Under the pieces are notes generated by a model. That model saw only the letters and a list, made by a program, of their open reading frames with translations, searched no databases and was not told where the DNA came from. Source: Citrus sinensis (lineage: Eukaryota > Streptophyta > Magnoliopsida > Sapindales > Rutaceae). Taken from it: a DNA stretch of 64,000 nt. Position 1 is the first letter of the stretch. Each line of letters starts with the position of its first letter. Made by a program: the position numbers and the translations under genes. The stretch is taken from the NCBI RefSeq assembly GCF_022201045.2, contig NC_068562.1, forward strand, positions 8,104,001 to 8,168,000. The letters run 5' to 3'. Shown here piece by piece: positions 15,949-16,381 of this stretch.

Positions 15949-16143
15949 ATGCCGACTTTAGCCACAATCAAAGAAGAAGAAGAAGAAGAGGAAGGTGTCG
16001 TTGATGATGAACTTGTCAGTGGCGGATCGTTGCCAAAGCCAATGGAAGGATTAAACGAGGTGGGTTCACCGCCGTTTTTGAGGAAAATATATGAGATGGT
16101 GGAGGATCTGGAAACCAACCCTGCTGTTTCTTGGATCAGCAGT
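15949..16143 (+). pseudogene. captured heat-stress transcription factor fragment
   Basis: An open frame begins [10 protein letters not shown], then an acidic run, and at residues 29-65 matches the N-terminal edge of the HSF DNA-binding domain: [20 protein letters not shown] followed by [14 protein letters not shown]. Class A plant HSFs (A2/A6/A7 type) have PMEGLxExGPPPFLxKTxxMVEDPxTxxVVSW here. The rest of the domain is missing and the text switches directly into phytoglobin sequence in another frame at about 16136-16143. FLRKIY replaces the conserved FLTKTY. It lies within MULE A, so it is best read as transduplicated cargo. Confidence 0.75.
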
Positions 16144-16381
16144 GCAACTGAGGAAAGCAGGCAAAGTGACAGTAAGAGAATCAACTCTAAAGAAATTAGG
16201 AGCTGTCCACTTCAAATATGGTGTTGTTAATGAACATTTTGAGGTCACAAAATTTGCACTACTGGAAACAATAAAGGAAGCAGTACCAAAGATGTGGTCA
16301 CTAGAAATGAAGAGTGCCTGGTCCGAAGCTTACGATCAATTGGTTGCAGCCATTAAGTCAGAGATGAAGCCCTCCTCTTAG
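16136..16381 (+). pseudogene. captured class 1 phytoglobin (non-symbiotic haemoglobin) C-terminal fragment
   Basis: The frame codes [47 protein letters not shown] and the C-terminus [10 protein letters not shown] with a stop at 16379-16381. This is the C-terminal half of plant class 1 haemoglobin, including the proximal haem histidine (GAVHFKYG). The N-terminal half with the distal histidine is absent. Plant globin genes usually have an intron close to the HFEV|TKFAL position (family knowledge), but here the text runs through without one, which hints at capture from a processed copy or a precise intron loss. It is in the +1 frame relative to the HSF part, so a chimeric transcript would not make a fused protein from the HSF start. 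A polyadenylation-like AATAATAAAAG follows near 16527. Confidence 0.8.

Follow-up and report, generated by a model that had tools for sequence, protein, structure and literature searches.

The segment 15374-17349 of the window (the whole 64,000-nucleotide stretch of Citrus sinensis DNA analysed here, C7:8104001-8168000) is, with a probability that we put at about 0.9, a non-autonomous Pack-MULE: an X-family MULE apparently captured pieces of host genes, its left arm would later have been swapped for that of family Y, the hybrid inserted in the window, and the cargo now drifts neutrally. The kind of element is well known; the mixed Y/X ends are its unusual feature. An earlier note on this DNA had described an HSF-phytoglobin chimera as shuffled Pack-MULE cargo, and this was borne out by the distinct parents of the pieces and by a perfect 9-bp target duplication; the MULE arms and a third gene fragment had escaped it. 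One genome holds all three parents, a sister copy and relatives of either end, which allows a probable sequence of events (capture, copying, exchange of an end) to be put forward. The features are listed in Table 1.

Table 1. Features of the element and its flanks (positions in the window).
Feature	Position	Strand	Basis or remark
Whole Pack-MULE	15374-17349		Cargo of three host genes between MULE arms
Left target site duplication, TTTGATGAA	15365..15373	.	Abuts left MULE terminus
Left arm, MULE family Y, terminus GAGTTCTGCTATTTG...	15374..15793	+	Genome matches and terminus score
Captured HSF exon 1 fragment	15790..16135	+	Parent on C1, L013 4520-4886
TAA stop in HSF frame	15883..15885	+	Translation from 15811; C1 parent has no stop there
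96-aa open frame	16091..16381	+	First ~15 residues from out-of-frame HSF DNA, remainder globin
Captured phytoglobin fragment	16136..16557	+	Most of fused exon 3+4, stop and 3' flank; parent on C8, L010 up to 5357
Filler, 15 bp	16558..16572	+	Aligns with neither parent; present in C3 copy too
Third captured fragment, intron-exon-intron of Lzipper-MIP1-type gene	16573..17019	+	Parent C8:4165239-4165687, 96%
Right arm, MULE family X, terminus ...CGGGGTAAATAACTTTTTCC	17013..17349	+	Genome matches and terminus score
Right target site duplication, TTTGATGAA	17350..17358	.	Abuts right MULE terminus

Limits and termini of the element

The duplicated 9-bp sequence occurs only twice in 15001-17800, at 15365 and 17350, both times abutting a terminus. 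When both boundaries were shifted by up to 200 bases, 31 of 160,800 flank pairs matched by chance. Helitrons insert without a target duplication, and the duplication is at odds with such an element here.

The left arm has 48 further matches in the genome, at 69-98% over varied lengths, many of which start at about 15370-15375, and its terminus scored 40 against family Y and 7.5 against family X. The right terminus scored 44 against X and 18 against Y, and the family matches place the limits at about 15371-15374 (Y, left) and about 17349 (X, right). Compared with each other, the two ends form a poor inverted repeat (best local score 7); all that they have in common is a 7-bp core, G[CT]TATTT, equidistant from each end. 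Both have drifted from their family patterns, by 3 of 22 bases at the Y left end and 2 of 20 at the X right end.

No transposase was found among 12 scanned open reading frames of at least 61 aa inside or overlapping the element, Pfam giving Globin in one and nothing in 11; the scan left out frames of 60 aa or fewer and one 66-aa frame whose overlap with the right end is 8 bases. MULE termini, a target duplication in the 9-11 bp range, host gene fragments with identifiable parents and the lack of an own transposase together mark the segment as a Pack-MULE.

Relatives of the two ends in the genome

Within each family the ends form inverted repeats, a 26-bp stretch in Y and about 60 bp in X (strings assembled by eye); of the first 13 bases, 11 are the same in the Y and X left termini. 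Y left ends with no more than one mismatch were found at 38 places in the genome and X right ends of this kind at 28, where the reversed controls gave 0; the ends of the window element, being 3 and 2 bases off, lie outside the 38 and the 28. Twelve Y loci were examined, that of the window among them: four pair with a matching right end and a perfect 9-bp duplication (one duplication being common to two of the four), and a fifth has a duplication with one mismatch. For family X, five distinct elements had a perfect 9-bp duplication and the others one mismatch or none. By these duplications, X and Y both behave as MULE families. At six of the 11 other Y loci and at several X loci, no convincing duplication was found within about 1.5 kb of flank.

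A regular-expression scan of 63 sequences yielded 13 distinct elements with paired ends and a duplication with at most one mismatch; since the 63 had been fetched by likeness to the window element, these counts represent no genome-wide rate. Read from the letters, 11 of the 13 have ends of the same family, including L032 and L037, which were read as Y in this way and whose right-end scores, taken against reference strings of unequal length, slightly favour X. In the remaining two, the ends differ in family: Y left and X right in the window element (duplication 9/9), X left and Y right in L054 (8/9), the latter 1,225 bp long and located in the region of C9:33117827. Two same-family elements were missed by the scan, L058 and a Y element on C8.

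This C8 Y element (13943539-13949078; 5,540 bp, target duplication TTTTAGTTA) is complete at both ends, contains a PF10551 MULE transposase domain with one stop, which makes it a candidate source of transposase in trans, and has an X left end 11 bases away. PF10551 was scored on 150 of 899 candidates and every one of the 150 passed the cut-off, one of them being that inside the C8 element. Other matches lie 3-5 kb inside a Y left end, at C7:8696574 (open frame of 741 aa), C8:20755142 (667 aa), C3:18472550 and C7:13073823, four loci that are known by their left ends alone. It is possible, though we hold the idea only tentatively, that MULE families in this genome exchange ends, that cargo built up in one family moves again under the left end of another, that cargo and promoter-bearing arms are swappable modules, and that the window hybrid and L054 are two products of this process. 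Under such an exchange, one transposase would join the ends of two MULE families, spreading cargo between them.

Parents of the chimera

A query of 461 bases (15940-16400) was searched against the genome (299.7 Mb, 11 contigs) and gave 12 matches: the window itself, one place on C3, three tandem places on C8, one on C1 and six weaker ones on C8, where each of the three tandem units contributes two exons of an adjacent phytoglobin gene. The C1 match covers the HSF part only (92% over query 32-196, E 2.5e-60) and the C8 match the globin part only (96% over query 193-461 at the three tandem places, E 1.2e-119), while on C3 the entire chimera is matched over nearly the full query length (96%, E 2.4e-212). 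Matches of this strength are not a matter of chance. The genome search that the earlier note had proposed thus recovered separate HSF and phytoglobin parents; the two halves stand together elsewhere only in the C3 sister copy of the cargo, which is no parental gene. The peptides that it quoted are present in the ORFs 15886-16230 and 16082-16381, and the HSF and globin parts are in separate frames, as it had said. Among the titles and abstract openings listed from open-licence papers on Pack-MULEs and Mutator-like elements, no mention of an HSF-phytoglobin transposon chimera was found, and those listed on intron loss and transposable elements in connection with phytoglobin gave nothing of relevance.

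The HSF piece aligns with the C1 parent at 87%, gaps counted (local alignment), and lacks the start codon and 5'UTR of that gene, which we take to be a class A HSF. Position 15949 is an ATG in the HSF frame (ORF 15886-16230). Exon 1 of the parent matches PF00447 (E 1.7e-20), and the HSF ORF of the window gave no Pfam family at E 0.1.

The phytoglobin piece is homologous over 16132-16557 to L010 4933-5357 (94.4%, local alignment). Its frame (ORF 16082-16381, which holds GAVHFKYG) is indeed open to the natural stop at 16379-16381, as the note had read it, and it matches PF00042 at profile positions 45-117 of 117 (E 1.5e-11); among solved structures it comes closest to non-symbiotic plant haemoglobins (3qqq, E 2.2e-42). 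The sole ATG upstream of the globin residues in this frame is that at 16091, in out-of-frame HSF sequence. The histidine of KPHAM, presumably the distal one, lies in parent exon 2 and is absent from the cargo; that of HFKYG, which we take to be proximal, is in the cargo.

The C8 parent of this piece has introns 1 and 2 (read in L010) and lacks intron 3. Its joined exons give an intact 161-residue protein with a stop, and it reads through the intron 3 site as GAGGTCACA, the same sequence being found in all three tandem copies. The neighbouring phytoglobin in L010 has an intron between HFE and VTK (GAG/gtaatt...aatag/GTGACA). The usual globin intron is truly missing from the cargo, as had been noticed, but it was not removed by capture: the cargo lacks intron 3 because the C8 parent lacks it. 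The three tandem units (L010, L011 and L012; C8:4171000-4234900) are about 27 kb apart and 99.5-100% alike over the compared blocks, and each has two phytoglobin genes, one with intron 3 and one without. The intron was lost precisely, and the tandem copying came afterwards and is recent. An X-type MULE lies at L010 5392-6608, directly 3' of the C8 parent and 34 bases past the captured piece, with a flank repeat of about 7/9 by eye. Read-through from this MULE was considered as a capture route and rejected; the order and orientation do not fit, and the repeat is only 7/9 by eye.

Third piece and junctions

The parent place of the third piece is the only such place reported in the genome besides the C3 sister copy. 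By eye, the parent exon begins after TTGACAG and runs up to GCCG/gtaa, with partial introns on either side; neighbouring parent ORFs match PF14389 (Lzipper-MIP1) at E 1.6e-10 and at 3.7e-4, the latter under the curated cut-off. On C8, this parent and the closest of the matched phytoglobin copies are 10,257 bp apart and share a strand, and a random spot would be so close with a probability of about 7e-5, a value reckoned after the fact. Two of the three pieces coming from spots at this distance is what is expected if repair jumped between nearby templates. In the cargo, the order of the phytoglobin and third pieces is swapped relative to C8, and all three pieces are in sense orientation.

At the HSF-globin junction there is a 1-base overlap, located 8-9 bases inside globin exon 3. 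The left arm joins the HSF piece with an AAAAT-like overlap, and the third piece joins the X arm with an overlap of a few bases, about AATGTAG, as given by the match limits 17013 and 17019. Such short overlaps would fit template switching; at animal Pack-TIR junctions the median overlap is 2 bp (PMC8277862).

The sister copy on C3

The C3 copy (L009) shares 15790-17210 with the window at 94%, gaps counted, filler and junctions included, which indicates that the chimera was assembled once and then copied. Its left end is of the X type, and its HSF region extends further upstream, with a TATA-like box, a 5'UTR and a start codon (L013 from 4332); read from this codon, the HSF frame ends in a stop after 22 codons. 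Each copy has its own break in the HSF frame: the window a TAA at 15883, C3 an 11-bp gap. A right terminus and a target duplication of the C3 copy were searched for and neither was found. At about 5462-5482 of L009, a short stretch of HSF cargo, CGTCACCATATGAGAACAG, is repeated beside the X left arm, perhaps as a trace of template switching.

Over 1,181 ungapped cargo sites, 40 changes relative to the parents are common to both copies; 21 more are found in the window only, 20 in C3 only, and 2 are three-way. The two copies have diverged by 0.037 (Jukes-Cantor), which at assumed substitution rates of 2.2e-9 to 1.3e-8 a year corresponds to the loose range of 8.5 to 1.4 million years.

Drift of the globin frame

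Over 79 codons of the globin frame, the two copies differ from each other by 6 replacement and 2 silent changes, on 184 replacement and 53 silent sites, whereas the changes that they have in common against the parent are 1 replacement and 7 silent (Fisher P 0.04, where the eight substitutions between copies are a small sample). That the common changes are mostly silent is as expected if the bulk of them arose in the constrained parent, while those between the copies look neutral, as expected without constraint. The 96-residue frame from the same ATG is open in both copies. As 5.6% of single changes make a stop, a frame with eight changes stays open with a probability of about 0.63 (by hand), so that its being open is likely due to chance.

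Judged from the letters alone, the cargo most probably yields no functional protein, and its pieces have the look of copies in decay, not of a new gene at work. The suggestion that the open globin frame could encode a haem-pocket fragment is not upheld: changes between the copies are 6 replacement to 2 silent, exon 2 is absent, and the ATG at 16091 lies in HSF DNA. More generally, such cargo can inherit from its parent both the lack of an intron and an open frame that looks conserved, and neither is informative on function.

Proposed history and alternatives

Taking the C3 copy in its simplest reading, the ancestor would have been an X element with the HSF 5' region, formed when an X-family MULE captured the three pieces by template switching during DNA repair. 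Capture would have been at the DNA level, because the third piece keeps introns and the phytoglobin parent itself lacks intron 3. One descendant may then have exchanged its left part, that is, the X end and the HSF 5' region, for a Y-family left arm; neighbouring Y and X elements such as those on C8, together with an internal deletion, could give such a Y/X hybrid. Recognised by a MULE transposase, the hybrid would have inserted in the window and produced the 9-bp duplication, after which the cargo drifted neutrally. If this is true, the swap replaced the HSF 5' region by transposon sequence and could alter the expression of the phytoglobin scrap.

The same ends could also have arisen in place: the original insertion would have been an X-family Pack-MULE, and gene conversion by a Y element would then have replaced its left end, the hybrid itself never having transposed. 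In favour of this are the 11 of 13 bases common to the Y and X left termini and the Y and X elements 11 bases apart on C8; against it, the conversion would need to end at the terminus, where the flank offers no known homology, and to join inside HSF with nothing but the AAAAT-like overlap. We consider this unlikely. Insertion of a reverse-transcribed copy of a chimeric, spliced HSF-phytoglobin transcript would account for the missing globin intron, but the C8 parent lacks the same intron, with the intron-less junction in all three tandem copies, and the 461-base genome search found no closer phytoglobin parent with intron 3. In addition, the exon of the third piece is flanked by intron sequence at either end, the HSF-globin junction lies inside exon 3, away from a splice edge, and there is no poly-A at the globin end. 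The probability of a retrocopy is close to nil, and a processed retrogene as the source of the cargo was rejected on the parent's own lack of the intron, the introns of the third piece and the missing poly-A.

It might still be asked whether the cargo is a functional chimeric gene or a source of regulatory RNA, coding for a haem-pocket peptide or yielding small RNAs that would act on HSF and phytoglobin. The globin frame is open in both copies, the pieces are in sense orientation, and 40% of Pack-MULEs are said to be transcribed (PMC8277862). The changes between copies look neutral, though, an open frame is expected by chance, exon 2 with its distal histidine is absent, and so is the HSF 5' region from the window copy; as far as sequence can tell, a function would be highly improbable. 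The preferred reading remains a Pack-MULE that captured its cargo within an X element, exchanged its left arm and inserted as a hybrid.

Comparison with known elements

Many Pack-MULEs carry pieces of several genes and keep introns. The window element is like the Pack-MULEs of rice and other plants in its MULE ends, 9-bp duplication and host gene fragments, and in the presence of more than one copy of one cargo (Jiang et al. 2004 as cited in PMC13317346; PMC8277862). It differs from them in that its ends come from two MULE families, with the other end retained in a sister copy.

By description, CitMule of Citrus clementina is alike in its 9-bp AT-rich duplications and short degenerate terminal repeats; unlike the window element, it is 6.8-6.9 kb long and transposase-coding, and no captured host genes are described for it in the text consulted (PMC4334395). 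The same text describes the idea of a hybrid element formed from the ends of separate transposons, and recognises non-TIR MULEs (PMC4334395). Multicopy Pack-TIRs, for which FoSTeST is described, share short junction overlaps and template switching before transposition; they are animal elements, unlike the plant element studied here (PMC8277862). Their authors regard FoSTeST as worth exploring for plant Pack-MULEs (PMC8277862).

Neighbourhood in the window

A second MULE-like element of 1,996 bp is located at 17368-19363, with a perfect 9-bp duplication, TTCACCCAA, at 17359-17367 and 19364-19372; its left duplication directly follows the right duplication of the Pack-MULE. About 0.5 kb to the left of the Pack-MULE, an open frame beginning MSMSAYYQTRAAHHGVVTSDWL... 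lies on the minus strand at 14441-14992; Pfam gave no family for this frame, and we take it to be the start of an eIF2B alpha-like gene.
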